A stretch of 64,000 nt of DNA from a virus: the IMG/VR virus record IMGVR_UViG_3300024348_000026, positions 1 to 64,000 of that record. The stretch is one strand, 5' to 3'. Position 1 is the first letter of the stretch. Every line of letters begins with the position of its first letter. Of the stretch, positions 2,882 to 43,661 are shown piece after piece. The position numbers and the translations under genes are program-made. The notes beneath the pieces are model-generated. The model was not told the DNA's origin. It was given only the letters and a program-made list of their open reading frames with translations, and made no database searches.

Positions 2882-3080
2882 AATATTTTGTAGTTTTTAG
2901 AATTCCTTTTTTATAAGAGGGAAAAAGCTCGATTATCTCTGACCAAGTTGTATGTCCTTCTTGGGCATCTGTCAAGAAAACACTCCAAGCTTCTTGAAAA
3001 AGTTGTTCGGGATGATCTTGCGGATAAGCTAAGGCGTCAGAAACACCCCAATTATACCAAGCTTTTTGCATTTTAGTCAT
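2868..3080 (-). CDS. hypothetical protein
   Basis: 70 aa, tryptophan-rich and acidic, unrecognised. It overlaps both neighbours by a few nt, as in a translationally coupled operon. Confidence 0.6.
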   Translation of the reverse strand: MTKMQKAWYNWGVSDALAYPQDHPEQLFQEAWSVFLTDAQEGHTTWSEIIELFPSYKKGILKTTKYYENW

Positions 3081-3240
3081 TGTTTTGTTTCTTGTAGACC
3101 TTTTTGCTGGTCTTGTTGCTCTTTGAGTTATTCCATGCCGTATCGCAGCATAAACCTTTGAAGATTTTGTTGCCGTTGTTCTGCATGTCGTAGAGGGAAC
3201 AGAATCCTAATTTACGACTGCGCATTGTATTTTTATTCAT
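3073..3240 (-). CDS. hypothetical basic protein
   Basis: 55 aa, Lys/Asn-rich with three cysteines. An in-frame upstream ATG would add 13 Asn/Lys/Thr residues and run to the stop of the previous gene, so the start is uncertain. Unrecognised. Confidence 0.5.
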   Translation of the reverse strand: MNKNTMRSRKLGFCSLYDMQNNGNKIFKGLCCDTAWNNSKSNKTSKKVYKKQNND

Positions 3241-4687: not shown

Positions 4688-4990
4688 TTAGTTTCTTACG
4701 GGGCCAATGCTATAACTTTTCCCTTCTGCCCATGCGATTACTGATGGACTTGAGCGGACATGATCTGCGGTTACTCGTTGGTTAATATTGGAAGAATAAA
4801 TAGTTTTTTCACCATTTGCTTTCCTCAAGCTCCAACGAAAATATGCTTTTTTACAAAGTGCTTTCGTTACTTCGATAATATCTCCGTCATGTTCTACGAA
4901 CAGAGAAGAAGGATCGGGGTTTAATGATTGCATCCACACACAAGCTTCTGTGGTTTCTACTGGCCCCAAGTTTTGATGAATGAAGTGCAT
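4688..4990 (-). CDS. hypothetical protein
   Basis: 100 aa, unrecognised. The start is fixed by a promoter whose -10 (TAACTT) ends 6 nt before the ATG. Confidence 0.65.
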   Translation of the reverse strand: MHFIHQNLGPVETTEACVWMQSLNPDPSSLFVEHDGDIIEVTKALCKKAYFRWSLRKANGEKTIYSSNINQRVTADHVRSSPSVIAWAEGKSYSIGPVRN

Positions 4991-6848: not shown

Positions 6849-7214
6849 TTATTTATCGACAAACTCTTCTTTTATCATTTTGCGAAACTCTTCTTCGGTG
6901 GCAGTCAACCATCTGGCGGGTTCTCCGTCATTAAACATCCACTTGCGAACACACATTTTTTGAGAAAGGAATCTGGCGTATGCCGCCTTTTTTAACCTAT
7001 CTTGTGTGTTGCTGTCGGCAACTAGCCCCCACATTAGGAGTCCTCGCCATTCGTCCAATTCACGCCGAAAAAGCTCCTCATAAATTGAACCACAGTCAAC
7101 TTTATCTCTCCCATGATTAGTCAAATAAGATTTAACCGCCCCAAAGGCTTCAATCATTTCACGAATATTCATGATTCGCCCAAGAGCTTCTTCGATCATT
7201 TGTTTTTTGTTCAT
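6849..7214 (-). CDS. hypothetical helical protein
   Basis: 121 aa, helical and charged, unrecognised. The start is fixed by the promoter whose -10 TAATAT ends 6 nt before ATG. Confidence 0.65.
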   Translation of the reverse strand: MNKKQMIEEALGRIMNIREMIEAFGAVKSYLTNHGRDKVDCGSIYEELFRRELDEWRGLLMWGLVADSNTQDRLKKAAYARFLSQKMCVRKWMFNDGEPARWLTATEEEFRKMIKEEFVDK

Positions 7215-7248
7215 GTGTGTATATTAGTTTAATAATCAGCCATGTCAA
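7215..7248 (-). promoter_or_regulatory. sigma70-type promoter, leaderless
   Basis: TTGACA, 16 bp, TAATAT, ACACAC, then ATG. Confidence 0.75.
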
Positions 7249-7294
7249 TCTTATATTTGTCGAAAAAATAATAAATTAGCCCTGATGTTCTTGT

Positions 7295-7870
7295 CTAAAT
7301 TGTATAAAGTTTATTCATCCAATCAACATAATCTTGGCTATACCAATAAGGTTTTTCTGTGAATTTCCAAGTTGCTATGTCTTTTTTATCGAATATATAA
7401 TACATTCTATATTTGTCAATAGGATGGAGATATTCAAAAAATGGAAGCTTGCGGCATTCGCAATCTGGATTAATGGCAACTGCGTATGCTGTCATTCCAT
7501 GAAGGGTGGATGGCAAGAAGTCTGGCGCTAACGATTTCGCTTGATCCCGCATTTTATAAATTCCAGCTTCACAAAAATGAATTTTATTATATCTTTTTGT
7601 GTATTCTTTGCATAGAGCGATACCAATTTCCGCACCCTGCATAAAATTAAAGTAAGAGTCCCCAAACCATTTAGTTACTGGATGATTTTTATGGGATTCT
7701 GCTGGCGCAGACCCTGATTTTGTAAATGGAAGCTTTTGATTGTCCACTCCGCGACGAATTAAAGCAGAAACCATCATTTGAAAACTTTCTGTGGGCATCT
7801 TAACGATGTGTTTGTCACAGTGGAATTTTGCGCATTCTCTAGGATCGGACGCAAGCAAGAATAAGTTCAT
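7295..7870 (-). CDS. phage protein of the CDKHIVKM family
   Basis: 191 aa. The N-terminus LFLLASDPRECAKFHCDKHIVKM is typical of a conserved phage family often labelled pyrimidine-dimer glycosylase-like. Then come HPVTKWFGDSYFNF and YYIFDKKDIATW. I recognise the family pattern but not a proven activity. The start at the ATG rather than the upstream TTG follows from the promoter spacing. Confidence 0.7.
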   Translation of the reverse strand: MNLFLLASDPRECAKFHCDKHIVKMPTESFQMMVSALIRRGVDNQKLPFTKSGSAPAESHKNHPVTKWFGDSYFNFMQGAEIGIALCKEYTKRYNKIHFCEAGIYKMRDQAKSLAPDFLPSTLHGMTAYAVAINPDCECRKLPFFEYLHPIDKYRMYYIFDKKDIATWKFTEKPYWYSQDYVDWMNKLYTI

Positions 7871-16579: not shown

Positions 16580-16632
16580 ACACTAGACCTTTTGTTATGT
16601 TTCTTGGTCCTTCTAGAGAGGACAACTAGCGT
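16580..16632 (-). ncRNA. 53-nt tRNA-like mini element
   Basis: Ends pair as a 7-bp acceptor-like stem (ACGCTAG with CTAGTGT). Inside, after TT, a 4-bp D-arm-like hairpin GTCC/GGAC is followed by only about 20 unpaired nt. There is no room for anticodon and T arms. Either a collapsed tRNA or a deliberate minimal RNA. Confidence 0.35.
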
Positions 16633-18406: not shown

Positions 18407-18496
18407 TGGTGCGTGTTGAGGAAGTCGAATCCCCTATGGTTCTTATGTTCTGGGTTTACAATCCAGCGCAGCACTCTCCAACTCTGCCGAACACGC
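18407..18496 (-). tRNA. tRNA-Tyr (anticodon GTA)
   Basis: Perfect acceptor GCGTGTT/AACACGC, A73, encoded CCA. Loop TTGTAAA reads GUA, class II variable arm, T arm GGGGA-TTCGACT-TCCTC. Confidence 0.9.
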
Positions 18497-18504
18497 TTTG
18501 AAAA

Positions 18505-18556
18505 TGGTCGCTCCCCATACGGCTCATGAAACCGTTACGCTTGCAAGCAGGGAGCG
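18505..18556 (-). ncRNA. 52-nt tRNA-Met-like gene lacking a T arm
   Basis: Perfect 7-bp acceptor CGCTCCC/GGGAGCG followed by A and CCA. The D region is shrunk to GCTTGCAAGC. Then comes a 5-bp anticodon stem ACGGT/GCCGT with loop TTCATGA (CAU). Only AT separates this from the 3' acceptor strand, so there is no T arm or variable loop. It may be a functional minimal tRNA or a deletion remnant. Confidence 0.5.
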
Positions 18557-18565
18557 TTTGAAAAT

Positions 18566-18635
18566 TGCAGGTGCGAGAATCGAACTCGCTTACGAGGCTT
18601 ATGAAACCCCTTTCTGAACCATTCGAATTACCTGC
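18566..18635 (-). tRNA. tRNA-Met (anticodon CAT)
   Basis: Loop TTCATAA in GGGGT/GCCTC, T arm GCGAG-TTCGATT-CTCGC, acceptor GCAGGTA with one mismatch, A73, no encoded CCA. Could also be a tRNA-Ile read after C34 modification; sequence alone does not decide. Confidence 0.8.
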
Positions 18636-18639
18636 GATT

Positions 18640-19242: not shown

Positions 19243-19270
19243 ACTTTATCTAGTTTCCTGATTTTGTCAA
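19243..19270 (-). promoter_or_regulatory. promoter of the tRNA array
   Basis: TTGACA, 16 bp, TAAAGT, oriented toward the tRNA genes. It is the only strong promoter-like sequence I see ahead of the array, so the tRNAs probably form one long precursor. Confidence 0.65.
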
Positions 19271-27221: not shown

Positions 27222-27974
27222 TTAATCATGTGTATGCTCCCCGCTATTATTGTTTTCATTTTGTGTTTTTTTAATTAATTTATAAAGAAGGGTTTTTTCT
27301 TTTTCTGAGATTTCCATGCTGTCGTATTTAGCATGGTTCTTTTTGAAAAAATGAATTAGTGGAGCGTTTGAATTGACAATATCTAGCGGATCTTCTTCCG
27401 CCAACAAAAGTCTTGAGCGCAGACTAGAAAAGGGTTCTATTTTGCTGCCGACTCCATCTAATATCAAAAAATCATTTGGAGATGCTTTACGGGCGTTATG
27501 ATTTAAGTAGGAATTTCCAAATGGCAGGCTTTTTCCTATATGGGTATTCGATTCAAACATTAAGTCGTTATGCTCTTCCCATTTTTTATAAAAGTCTGTA
27601 TGGTCTTTTGCCCCTAAAATTGCATTATTAAATCCAATAAGCTTGCCAAAAACATAAAAGCCTATAAAGAATCCACTCTTCTCTTCGATGCTCTTAAATA
27701 AGCCGTCTAGACTTTCTCTAACTAAAACATCGCTATCAAGCCAGATACCGCCATATTGTTTTAATAGTTTTACGCGAAGGAAATCGGTGGCGTCTACTAT
27801 ATGCGGCAAATCAAAAACGGCATCAGGGAATTTGATGTATTGTTTGATAGATTCTTTAGTTAGCTTGTGTAAAGCGTAGCTCTCTTTAGAGCAGCGTTTT
27901 TCTAAGATCTCCTCCAAGTCTTCGATTACTTCTGACTTTGGCCCATCCCAATATGTGAAAATATTTTTTAACAT
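27222..27974 (-). CDS. glycosyltransferase, GT32-like
   Basis: 250 aa. ATDFLRVKLLKQYGGIWLDSDV is the signature of DXD sugar transferases of the capsule/GT32 group (DSD binds the metal and sugar nucleotide). Last gene of a five-gene glycosyltransferase run with 4-7 nt overlaps. Confidence 0.85.
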   Translation of the reverse strand: MLKNIFTYWDGPKSEVIEDLEEILEKRCSKESYALHKLTKESIKQYIKFPDAVFDLPHIVDATDFLRVKLLKQYGGIWLDSDVLVRESLDGLFKSIEEKSGFFIGFYVFGKLIGFNNAILGAKDHTDFYKKWEEHNDLMFESNTHIGKSLPFGNSYLNHNARKASPNDFLILDGVGSKIEPFSSLRSRLLLAEEDPLDIVNSNAPLIHFFKKNHAKYDSMEISEKEKTLLYKLIKKTQNENNNSGEHTHD

Positions 27975-28642
27975 GATTCTTTGATTGGGTGGAAGATTTC
28001 TTTTTCGCCTGAAAATATCATTGCATTATAATCGACAAACGGCAAGTTTATTTCCCCTATTCTCGCGCCTTCTATTGACGCTATCGTGGGCAAGCGTAAT
28101 TCGCTTATAATATCTTGTCTATAAGCTTCGTCCCACTGTGGGCGGGCAATGCTATCTAAAACCCATTTCTTTGTTAGAAAGCAGCCAAGCGAAATAAGCC
28201 CAACGGCTCGCTCTGAAAGCATTAGTTTTAGTTTTGGAATCTCACCCCACCAATACCAATAATCCTGATGCCAATCGAGATCGGACATTCTTTTTCTTAC
28301 CCATTGATTCTTTAGGTGCAACGGCTCAACGAACATTTGTTTGCCGACAAGATCAAGATTAAACGGAATTTCTGGGAATGCACAATTAACTAAAGTGTCC
28401 CATTCTATAATAGCAACACAATTTGTAGCGACTAAAGAACCGTTTTCTATCCACCATTTTCTTAAAGCTTGATCTGCGTTTCTCCAATTATATCTTTTGC
28501 CAAAAGGGTGGTCTTCTCCAATAACGACATGAACTGACATTTTTGGATTATTTTTAAGTAAAGGCAAAAGGTGAGGAAGCAGTAGCTCGCCTGTGGTTTT
28601 GTTCACATGGGTTAATATTAAACAAGTATAATTAGATATCAT
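27968..28642 (-). CDS. putative glycosyltransferase (GT-A-like)
   Basis: 224 aa. TCLILTHVNKTTGELLLPHL, then CVAIIEWDTLVNC, with EWDT at the DXD position. YWYWWGEIPK and a late acidic patch follow. Less typical than its neighbours; the assignment leans on fold pattern and operon context. Confidence 0.6.
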   Translation of the reverse strand: MISNYTCLILTHVNKTTGELLLPHLLPLLKNNPKMSVHVVIGEDHPFGKRYNWRNADQALRKWWIENGSLVATNCVAIIEWDTLVNCAFPEIPFNLDLVGKQMFVEPLHLKNQWVRKRMSDLDWHQDYWYWWGEIPKLKLMLSERAVGLISLGCFLTKKWVLDSIARPQWDEAYRQDIISELRLPTIASIEGARIGEINLPFVDYNAMIFSGEKEIFHPIKESC

Positions 28643-29376
28643 TTTAATAATGATTTGAATGTTTTAGACCTTTTCCAAAAAACTAAAAATCTTGCTGATT
28701 CTTTCCAATGGAAAAACTGCTTGTGCGTTAGCACCCTCTCTTGAAGTTTCTCTTTTACATTTTTTGTCCATTTGTAATGATTGACTTTTAATATTTCAGA
28801 ATTAAACACAGCTTTGCTTTTGAATTCGGGCATTAACTCATGATGTCCTCCTTTGACGAGGATATTAGCTTTTGTTATGGGTATTTTTTTTGTTTGACAC
28901 CATAGAATGGAGCGTCCGATATCTGCTGTTCTTGGAAATTGTTCTGATAGGGGTTTTTGGGGGATTATTTCTGGAAGCGAACCGTCTTCGGATACTCTAT
29001 CTATCATAGATCCTGAACAACAATTTTCCCCATTAGCCTCCATTTTCTTGATTTTTTCTTTTAGGGTTTGGCCAACAGATTCTGCTTGTTCGTCTATATC
29101 TGTATGAATAAGCCAATCCTTATCTGTTAGCCCTGATTCCTTGATGACTAAGTGCCTAGCATCTTCTGAGACTTTCGTATTCCATTCGCCATATTGAAAA
29201 TAGACAGAGGCTTTTTTGGTAGAGTAGTAGTCTCGATAAGCGTTTTCATCAGTGGGGCTTTTTGAGTGCAAAATCAAGAAATGGTGATCTACTCCCTGAG
29301 AATCGTAGAAAGCTAGAAAATGATCGATATATGCTTCGTCAAAATCCAAGCTGCACATTGTAATGGTCGCGATCAT
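28639..29376 (-). CDS. glycosyltransferase (GT-A, HTDIDE motif)
   Basis: 245 aa from MIATITMCSLDFDEAYIDHF. DWLIHTDIDEQAESVG supplies the DXD motif, and KVNHYKWTKNVKEKLQER resembles the C-terminal region of GT2/GT92-like enzymes. Start at the ATGA overlap with the upstream gene. Confidence 0.75.
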   Translation of the reverse strand: MIATITMCSLDFDEAYIDHFLAFYDSQGVDHHFLILHSKSPTDENAYRDYYSTKKASVYFQYGEWNTKVSEDARHLVIKESGLTDKDWLIHTDIDEQAESVGQTLKEKIKKMEANGENCCSGSMIDRVSEDGSLPEIIPQKPLSEQFPRTADIGRSILWCQTKKIPITKANILVKGGHHELMPEFKSKAVFNSEILKVNHYKWTKNVKEKLQERVLTHKQFFHWKESARFLVFWKRSKTFKSLLK

Positions 29377-30119
29377 TGTAGGTATTCCTCTCTCCAAGGT
29401 TGTTTGTTGGCGAAGTGTCGCAAGATGGTATCATTTGGAAGGGTTTTGTTTATAAAAAGTCTCCTTAATGCCCACGCTTGCCGATTGTCTATTTCTTCTT
29501 GCAGAAGAGTAACATTCCATATTGGATCTTTCACTTCGACATGATCGAGCAATTCTGTGACGATATATTTAGCATCTTCGGCTTGAGCAGAGTGAAACCC
29601 GTAATGAGGCAGCGTTAGAAAAGACTGCCCATTAAATGGTTGGATTCCAGCCAAAGAATACCATGCGGCTTGCTCCCTGAAGTGTTGCCAGAATTTTATA
29701 TTTTTGTTTTTTTGGTATAAGTCTTCATCTAATATGTTTTTGATTAAACCTATCGACCACTCGTTCAAATTAATACAAAAGTTTCCCATACAGTGGCTAT
29801 TGCAGCTATCGATAGCGTAAGAAAAACTTTTTTCTGTCAAGTATTCCATGTCTGGTTTTACTATCACCATGTCGGCATCAAAATGTATAATCCTATCTCC
29901 CATCTCTATTTCTGCATTATGGTAAAACTGTTCTAATAAATAGAACTTTAACCAAGTAGGATTCTCTCTAAAGTCTGGAAGATTCCAAGAGTTGTCTATT
30001 AGCAGATATTCCATTCCATGCCTAAAACAATAATCTTTATTCTTAGGCGAAATAGACTCCTCAAATAGATCCTGTCTTTCGTCTTGGTATCTTGCAATAA
30101 CAAATAGATATTTTTTCAT
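29373..30119 (-). CDS. glycosyltransferase (GT34-like)
   Basis: 248 aa. WLKFYLLEQFYHN and GDRIIHFDADMVIVKP carry the DAD metal-binding motif. FREQAAWYSL and LPHYGFHS follow as in galactosyl/mannosyltransferase-type enzymes. Confidence 0.8.
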   Translation of the reverse strand: MKKYLFVIARYQDERQDLFEESISPKNKDYCFRHGMEYLLIDNSWNLPDFRENPTWLKFYLLEQFYHNAEIEMGDRIIHFDADMVIVKPDMEYLTEKSFSYAIDSCNSHCMGNFCINLNEWSIGLIKNILDEDLYQKNKNIKFWQHFREQAAWYSLAGIQPFNGQSFLTLPHYGFHSAQAEDAKYIVTELLDHVEVKDPIWNVTLLQEEIDNRQAWALRRLFINKTLPNDTILRHFANKQPWREEYLQ

Positions 30120-30769
30120 TTAAAAAGTTTGTGACAGCTATCTTGTCTTGATGCCTTATGCTCTTTTTGGGCATAGAGTCCATTGTTATAATCGGGCAGA
30201 TTTAAGAATCTGTTTCTTAAAAAAAGTGGAAGCGTTTTGTTTTTTATTAATGAGGATATAAATATATCGTCTTCTATTCTTGGATTGTCTATTGAAGCTC
30301 CAAATGCCTCGCTGTTCAACCTTAAGACAGACTTTGGGCAAAAGATGAATCTGCCTTTTAAAATGTCAACCTTGTCTGTTTCTCCAGCGACTAAATGTTT
30401 TGATCCCCAATAAGACTTATCTTTATTCAAATGGACGCCAAAGAAACCAATAGCTCCTTTGTCGTTTTGTTTTTGACAATAAAAAATACAATCTTCAATG
30501 ACTTTTTCGTCTCTAAAGATGAAATCATCATCTAAAGAAAAAATATAATCGGAAGATGCGTAATTAGCCATGAACCATCTAGGCCAGCACATTAGATTCT
30601 TTGAAGAGTCGATTTGAAGATCGACATCATATTTTGTTTTGTCGAGGGGATTATTGTTCCATAAAAATATCTCGATAGGCGCAGATTGACTTCTTAAAGA
30701 GTTGATTATCTTTAAGAGGTTACTCTGTCTTGCGTAAGATAGAAGTAAGGCTGTCGCTTTGCTTTTCAT
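30116..30769 (-). CDS. glycosyltransferase (GT2-like)
   Basis: 217 aa. ATALLLSYARQSNLLKIINS at the start, SSDYIFSLDDDFIFRDEKVI (DDD) as the metal site, and IEDDIFISSLI as the acceptor-side acidic motif. First gene of the five-enzyme run. Confidence 0.8.
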   Translation of the reverse strand: MKSKATALLLSYARQSNLLKIINSLRSQSAPIEIFLWNNNPLDKTKYDVDLQIDSSKNLMCWPRWFMANYASSDYIFSLDDDFIFRDEKVIEDCIFYCQKQNDKGAIGFFGVHLNKDKSYWGSKHLVAGETDKVDILKGRFIFCPKSVLRLNSEAFGASIDNPRIEDDIFISSLIKNKTLPLFLRNRFLNLPDYNNGLYAQKEHKASRQDSCHKLFK

Positions 30770-43007: not shown

Positions 43008-43661
43008 TTATTTGATAAATTCGCCGCATTTTTGAGGACCATTATCATAGTAGACCTTCTGGGATTTGGGATATTCTGGAATTATTTGGTATTTTAATTT
43101 GCCGAGCATCTCTTTTTTCTGCTTTTTTGAACCAACAAAATAGAAGTATCTGTGTTTTGGCGAGGGTTTTATCTTTTCAATATTATTCTCCCTTGCCCAT
43201 TCTGCGGGTTTTGTTATGCCGAACTTGTCTCTGAGGGTCATTGGGTGGGTTGGTTTCCCGTCAACCATATAAAGGCAATCGTGGGACACTGTTGGCCCTG
43301 TATATATCCAGTTTGTCGCTTGGTAAACAATTCCGCTGTGTCCGTGGGCAGAGTCCGCATAACTCACTATGGCGCAAAATCTTTCTTTCAGCATTTTGAT
43401 TGACTGACTTATCAAAAACGATGCGGCGTTATTGATTCCATTATCAACAACTAATCTAGTCAATTCGTATAGGCGAAAATCTCTGTTTTCAAAAGCGTAT
43501 TTTTGAATAGGGGAAGATGGTTGGCCAAAACAGCAAACGCCAATCAGTTTTTCTTCGCTATAAAGCCCAAATCCTTCCCAAAAAATACCTAATCTTTTTG
43601 AATAATGTTTGTTTGACACAACAAGATCTGCCGTGCGACGATCTATTGATTTAACGATCAT
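43008..43661 (-). CDS. Mom-like DNA-modification acetyltransferase
   Basis: 217 aa. NKHYSKRLG, GVCCFGQPSSP, YELTRLVVDNG, NAASFLISQSIKML, SYADSAHGHSG and YQATNWIYTG reproduce the GNAT-like core of phage Mu Mom and relatives, which modify adenine in phage DNA to resist restriction. The equivalent modification here is inferred. Confidence 0.8.
   Translation of the reverse strand: MIVKSIDRRTADLVVSNKHYSKRLGIFWEGFGLYSEEKLIGVCCFGQPSSPIQKYAFENRDFRLYELTRLVVDNGINNAASFLISQSIKMLKERFCAIVSYADSAHGHSGIVYQATNWIYTGPTVSHDCLYMVDGKPTHPMTLRDKFGITKPAEWARENNIEKIKPSPKHRYFYFVGSKKQKKEMLGKLKYQIIPEYPKSQKVYYDNGPQKCGEFIK

Follow-up and report, generated by a model that had tools for sequence, protein, structure and literature searches.

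A conserved T-armless tRNA-like RNA gene in a phage tRNA array

Arm-lacking tRNAs have been stated to be exclusive to mitochondria (PMC11551756). The T arm is the contact site of EF-Tu domain III, and nematode mitochondria require a special EF-Tu1 for their T-armless tRNAs (PMC12221289). An artificial D-armless tRNA has been reported to be usable by E. coli (PMC11551756). In phages, tRNAs have been proposed to act as a counter to VapC, PrrC and colicin nucleases (PMC10264068).

The 52-nt unit described here, a conserved T-armless tRNA-like RNA of phages, contrasts with the description of arm-lacking tRNAs as mitochondria-exclusive (PMC11551756), and it represents a natural test of the minimal tRNA needs of bacterial MetRS, RNase P, IF2, EF-Tu and the ribosome. 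Phage tRNA arrays hold conserved RNAs that are invisible to tRNA finders and Rfam, and in some cases their conservation surpasses that of most adjoining tRNAs.

Location and fold of the 52-nt element

The window (the whole stretch of DNA analysed, 64 kb out of a 67.5-kb IMG/VR phage fragment) contains RIIA/RIIB-like, J-like tail fibre and Clp-ATPase genes, as well as a minus-strand tRNA array (about 18956 to 16319) in which most units end in CCA and are followed by ATTTT-type spacers. The element occupies positions 18505-18556 of the minus strand, with support from fold, homologues and a covariance model, and its RNA reads, from 18556 to 18505, CGCUCCC-U-GCU UGCA AGC-GUA-ACGGU UUCAUGA GCCGU-AUG-GGGAGCG-A-CCA. 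It is preceded by tRNA-Met and followed after 8 nt by a tRNA-Tyr-like unit, and since spacers of the array type flank it on both sides, the element is complete, with nothing cut off.

The first-pass annotation had proposed, without naming a strand, a 52-nt unit with a 7-bp acceptor, A73, CCA and CAU, in which the T arm and variable loop are absent and the D arm is reduced; all of these features were recovered on the minus strand. As in a canonical tRNA, the acceptor stem comprises 7 bp and is followed by A73 and CCA. Its 5′ strand CGCUCCC (18550-18556) carries C at base 1, replaced in both homologues (see below) by A, which results in an A-G mismatch at pair 1-72, the other bases being invariant; its 3′ strand GGGAGCG is found together with the discriminator A73 and the encoded CCA at 18505-18515. 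The D-like hairpin GCU-UGCA-AGC (18539-18548), invariant in the three phages, has 3 bp and a UGCA tetraloop. The anticodon arm ACGGU-UUCAUGA-GCCGU (18519-18535) is formed by a 5-bp stem, covarying in the three phages, and a 7-nt loop with U33, invariant UCAUGA bases and G37. Between the anticodon stem and the acceptor, the 3-nt connector AUG, present in all three copies, replaces the T arm and variable loop and leaves no space for a T arm, so that the four-arm cloverleaf with a T arm (UUCRANN loop) is not formed, and acceptor, D and anticodon arms plus a short connector make up the T-armless tRNA form.

The predicted minimum free energy fold (-22.3 kcal/mol) is a three-way junction of acceptor, D hairpin and anticodon arm. 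In shuffling comparisons a 54-nt version of the element reached a z of -3.1, with 0/200 shuffles equally low, and a 51-nt version a z of -3.3 (1/200 shuffles). ARAGORN made no call for the element and Rfam gave no match, RF00005 included, even at E 3. A covariance model (R1), for which the element is one of the three training sequences, found it in the window with an E of 1.8e-18. A mechanical descriptor requiring a 7/7 acceptor (G-U pairs permitted), CCA, an anticodon arm with T33, a D-like hairpin and a short tail had 24 matches in other phage sequence totalling 2.75 Mb, which corresponds to an expectation of about 0.03 for each strand of a 3-kb array.

A 53-nt element at 16580-16632, which had been proposed to have a similar reduced form, did not hold up: it lacks both CCA and an anticodon stem, although a D-like hairpin and perhaps an outer stem of 7 bp are present, its folding is ordinary (z -0.64, 57/200 shuffles as stable), and no copy was found in the array comparisons. 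It was dropped as a similar RNA.

Conservation in divergent phages

Two homologues were identified. The first one lies at 3046-3096 of a 48-kb contig (IMGVR 3300012663_001434, hereafter L092), between tRNA-Lys and tRNA-Tyr, and was obtained when the array was searched by blastn against 50 Clp-related phage records; its identity to the window is 90% over 59 nt, with 45/52 positions across the element. The second, obtained by a relaxed pattern scan of IMG/VR, lies at 4702-4754 (minus) of locus L150 in a 198-kb contig (3300007735_000926), against which the Clp query gave no match, and is 84% identical over about 60 nt. Both are 51-53 nt long and belong to divergent phages, in which they take different array positions, the L150 copy opening a different tRNA cluster. 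The order of the element followed by tRNA-Tyr is shared by the window and L092, the window neighbour being a tRNA-Tyr(GTA)-like unit (18407-18496, minus) that is only 58% identical to its counterpart.

Between the window and L092, same-anticodon tRNAs are mostly 34-58% identical, with Thr-TGT reaching 80%, and non-orthologous tRNA pairs show a mean identity of 39%. By this sequence comparison, conservation of the element exceeds that of almost every tRNA nearby, and horizontal transfer between arrays could account for part of its identity. No change is seen among the three copies in acceptor bases 2-7 or the bases paired with them, in the AUG connector, in A73-CCA and the 3′ end AUGGGGAGCGACCA, in the D hairpin GCUUGCAAGC or in the loop bases UCAUGA. 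The variation is informative in the anticodon stem: six substitutions separate the window from L092, four of them making two compensated pairs there, and at least two such pairs arose in 0.15% of the trials of a random-substitution simulation of this comparison. Across the three copies, 15/15 cells of the anticodon stem are standard pairs and 3/5 pairs have changed on both sides, compared to 20-67% pairing in registers shifted by 1-3 bases; in L150 an additional sixth pair is present. Since MAFFT places the window linker one base off, the covariation counts were made on the 17-nt anticodon arm without gaps. For the acceptor and D helices, support comes from folding rather than covariation, because there is no variation in them among only three sequences. 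The pattern in these alignments is that of an anticodon-arm stem kept as structure and of an acceptor, D hairpin and loop kept as sequence.

Conservation in related phages had been named beforehand as a check, and a full-length version in relatives as a refutation. The two homologues with their compensatory changes answer the former and settle that the RNA is real; regarding the latter, no full-length version was found in the arrays of four further loci (L093, L094, L095 and L141), and the two independent copies are equally short. Searches elsewhere yielded no further homologue: in 50 phage records R1 recovered only its three training copies, blastn of INPHARED phages (50,697 records) and of 72,556 plasmids found none, the 12 matches of a pattern scan of genome contigs were all due to chance, and most matches of the IMG/VR pattern scans were unrelated sequence. 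Taken together, the comparative evidence establishes the element as a real, conserved T-armless tRNA-like RNA gene of phages. This is also the name that should be used, since the element falls outside the canonical definition of a bacterial tRNA and its charging is putative.

The array and its other RNAs

The unit preceding the element in the window (18564-18637, minus) is a full-size tRNA (CAU) with a T arm and an initiator-type C1-A72 mismatch. It has GGUUUCAU(A/G)AGCC in common with the element, which suggests that the anticodon arm of the element may derive from such a CAU tRNA. A sigma70-like sequence TTGACA-16-TAAAGT (19243-19270, minus), a consensus match only, is likely the promoter of the array. 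It stands before a conserved structured leader RNA (19279-19159, minus; AAAACAUCAACGGCAGCGAGCGCC..GAAGCCGC..GUCCGARAGGGAGAUUAGGG), 84% identical in the divergent L092 and L093, which resembles a leader that serves antitermination or processing of the tRNA array. In L150 the element itself is preceded by a promoter-like TTGACT-16-TAAATA, sites of the same form being present elsewhere in that contig as well. A start 6-8 bases past this -10 box would coincide with base 1 of the element, and the predicted 5′ end in this third phage may thus be the transcription start.

Several other array units were recorded. An RNA of about 130 nt (17133-16993, minus) with a UGCGGU/ACCGCA end stem and (A)CCA is some 80-84% identical in L092, L093 and L141 and has no Rfam match in the window or L092/L093; this unit and the leader are conserved about as much as the element. 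Another unit (ACAAAUUAAAGUAUG...AAUAGUCACUGUG..UUCGGUAGUGGGGA), at 17370-17288 (minus) and at L092:6348-6430, is 80% identical between the two and has no Rfam match. A family of units of about 110 nt (CCCCRCAAUGAGGG...GAGCGACCUGAKCGGGG) is represented at 18402-18292 and 16992-16883 of the window (both minus), in L094 and in L137; in L094 it shows a perfect 7-bp acceptor and CCA, as an unnamed tRNA-ended RNA. The unit at 16484-16400 (minus) is tRNA-Thr(GGT)-like with acceptor mismatches at 3-70 and 4-69. Outside the array, the window carries a Mom-family DNA modification protein (43008-43661, minus; PF25680, E 9e-38) and a glycosyltransferase cluster (27222-30769).

In the compared phages, a YrlA-like Y RNA was found at L092:4301-4424 (RF02553, E 6e-5), and the reading of L092:4320-4400 as a permuted tRNA gene was rejected on account of this match. 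A similar-looking permuted T-arm/acceptor/D-arm unit of the window (18722-18640, minus) shows imperfect acceptor pairing and no Rfam match. A gene for a TROVE (Ro60/Rsr) protein (G050:C1:7442-8164; L142, L143) is located close to the tRNA array of a relative, which suggests that this phage may have both a Ro protein and a Y RNA of its own. The array of L093 includes a GOLLD-like giant RNA (6946-7449, minus; 138 bits, just below the gathering score of 150). An unnamed RNA of about 90 nt (GAUCCAG..GUGGAAGGCCCGCCUAUC..UAAAUGUCGUUAAAAGCG) is near-identical at L093:10104-10204 and L150:4588-4688 (minus), in phages otherwise divergent; it lies directly after the T-armless element in L150 and, in L093, after a unit whose acceptor is similar (CGCUCG..CGAGCGACCA). 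Finally, a tRNA-like unit with an acceptor and a T arm, apparently lacking the D arm, is conserved between two phages (L092 5313-5385 and L093 6585, minus).

Possible functions and comparison with known systems

The element would be cut out of the array transcript in the same way as its tRNA neighbours, and would then be bound by a factor recognising both the acceptor end and the CAU loop. Fixed loop and acceptor bases together with a free stem suit a factor touching the acceptor end and the anticodon, as methionyl-tRNA synthetase (MetRS) does, and the host MetRS is the most plausible candidate, since its known determinants sit in invariant parts. The identity elements of bacterial Met tRNAs are A73, (G2-C71), (C3-G70), U4-A69, A5-U68, (C32), (U33), CAU and (A37) (PMC9976931). 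Among these, A73, G2-C71, C3-G70, U4-A69, U33 and CAU are present in the element; A5-U68, C32 and A37 are missing, for which reason charging by MetRS could be weak. Lacking the T arm, the element would be a poor EF-Tu substrate and would therefore work as a mimic of Met-tRNA or a decoy, tying up MetRS or a nuclease directed at CAU, or else carry Met outside normal elongation. Our favoured, though tentative, reading is that of a selectively maintained tRNA-mimicking small RNA, recognised by a CAU-reading factor, most plausibly MetRS, and acting as a mimic, decoy or Met carrier. A bolder version, a natural T-armless tRNA outside mitochondria in the form of a 52-nt CAU RNA charged by MetRS and bypassing EF-Tu, for initiation or as a Met donor or decoy, appears rather unlikely.

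In an alternative that we regard as doubtful, the element is a structured regulatory RNA that borrows tRNA ends for its maturation, with palindromic UCAUGA and UGCA loops that pair with RNA or dimerise and an incidental CAU. Both UCAUGA and GCUUGCAAGC are self-complementary as well as invariant, and other non-tRNA RNAs with CCA ends are found in these arrays, but the geometry of an anticodon arm (5-6 bp stem, 7-nt loop, U33) and A73-CCA are retained in 3/3 copies. The fixed loop and free stem bases would also fit a decoy for a putative host anticodon nuclease attacking CAU, like the VapC-type enzymes that cut initiator tRNA, whereby the real tRNA-fMet is spared, and phage tRNAs have been proposed to counter such nucleases (PMC10264068). 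The change at position 37 can be read in favour of this possibility, although it could as well prevent cutting, and we consider such a decoy unlikely.

It is less probable still that the element is a minimal but functional tRNA, one that receives Met (or, after modification to lysidine, Ile) and serves the ribosome. It would most plausibly do so at initiation, because there the fMet-CCA end is held by IF2 and EF-Tu is unnecessary. CAU, A73-CCA and the Met acceptor determinants are in line with it, as are the 1-72 mismatch in two of the three copies, the initiator-type full tRNA-Met adjoining the window element and the acceptance of an artificial D-armless tRNA by E. coli (PMC11551756). Against this, G37 beside U36 is nearly unique, A37 being found in 38/39 other U36 tRNAs of the compared loci and in 10/10 CAT tRNAs; the anticodon stem lacks the initiator GGG/CCC; all three phages already carry full-size CAU tRNAs; and the missing T arm is the very contact of EF-Tu (PMC12221289). 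A search for the EF-Tu domain PF03143 gave no match in the window record, in those of five relatives or in G048/G052, all of them incomplete phage records, and the coevolved EF-Tu with a C-terminal extension of T-armless mitochondrial systems was likewise not found in the phage records. Of the earlier label “Met tRNA”, the T-armless form and several Met elements therefore stand, whereas an ordinary translating Met tRNA is opposed by G37, the lack of a phage EF-Tu gene and the full-size CAU tRNAs; an ordinary elongator role is probably not what the element has.

A tRNA pseudogene decaying after a deletion is highly improbable: tRNA remnants do occur in phage arrays and prokaryotic tRNA fragments are common (PMC9897764), but the equal form and length in three divergent phages, an identity above that of most neighbouring tRNAs and, above all, the compensatory stem changes largely refute it. 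A chance fold is ruled out by conservation and covariation, and truncation or mis-assembly by the inter-unit spacers on either side and the two independent, equally short copies. Protein coding was rejected, there being no shared frame; stop-free stretches over the element centre span 9 to 82 aa, none of them long in all three copies.

Compared to canonical tRNA-Met and tRNA-fMet (RF00005), the tRNA-mimicking element shares CAU, A73, G2-C71, C3-G70, U4-A69 and, in two copies, a 1-72 mismatch, and differs in having no T arm, no variable loop, a 3-bp D stem and G37. YrlA bacterial Y RNAs (RF02553) are tRNA-mimicking as well, and one is present in a phage array of a similar kind (L092); however, they mimic a permuted acceptor/T/D module and have neither a CCA end nor a CAU loop, and RF02553 had no match at 18505-18556, so that the element is a different RNA. 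The stable RNAs C and D of phage T4 are, like the element, small non-tRNA RNAs co-transcribed with phage tRNAs, but they are longer and are not known to adopt a CAU tRNA form. The T-armless and armless mitochondrial tRNAs of nematodes, mites and spiders differ from the element, which belongs to a phage with bacterial translation, is a single gene among full-size tRNAs, has an encoded CCA and G37, and is accompanied by no adapted EF-Tu that could be found; with these tRNAs it nevertheless has in common the acceptor, the D-like hairpin, the anticodon arm, the short connector, a similar length and the CCA end.
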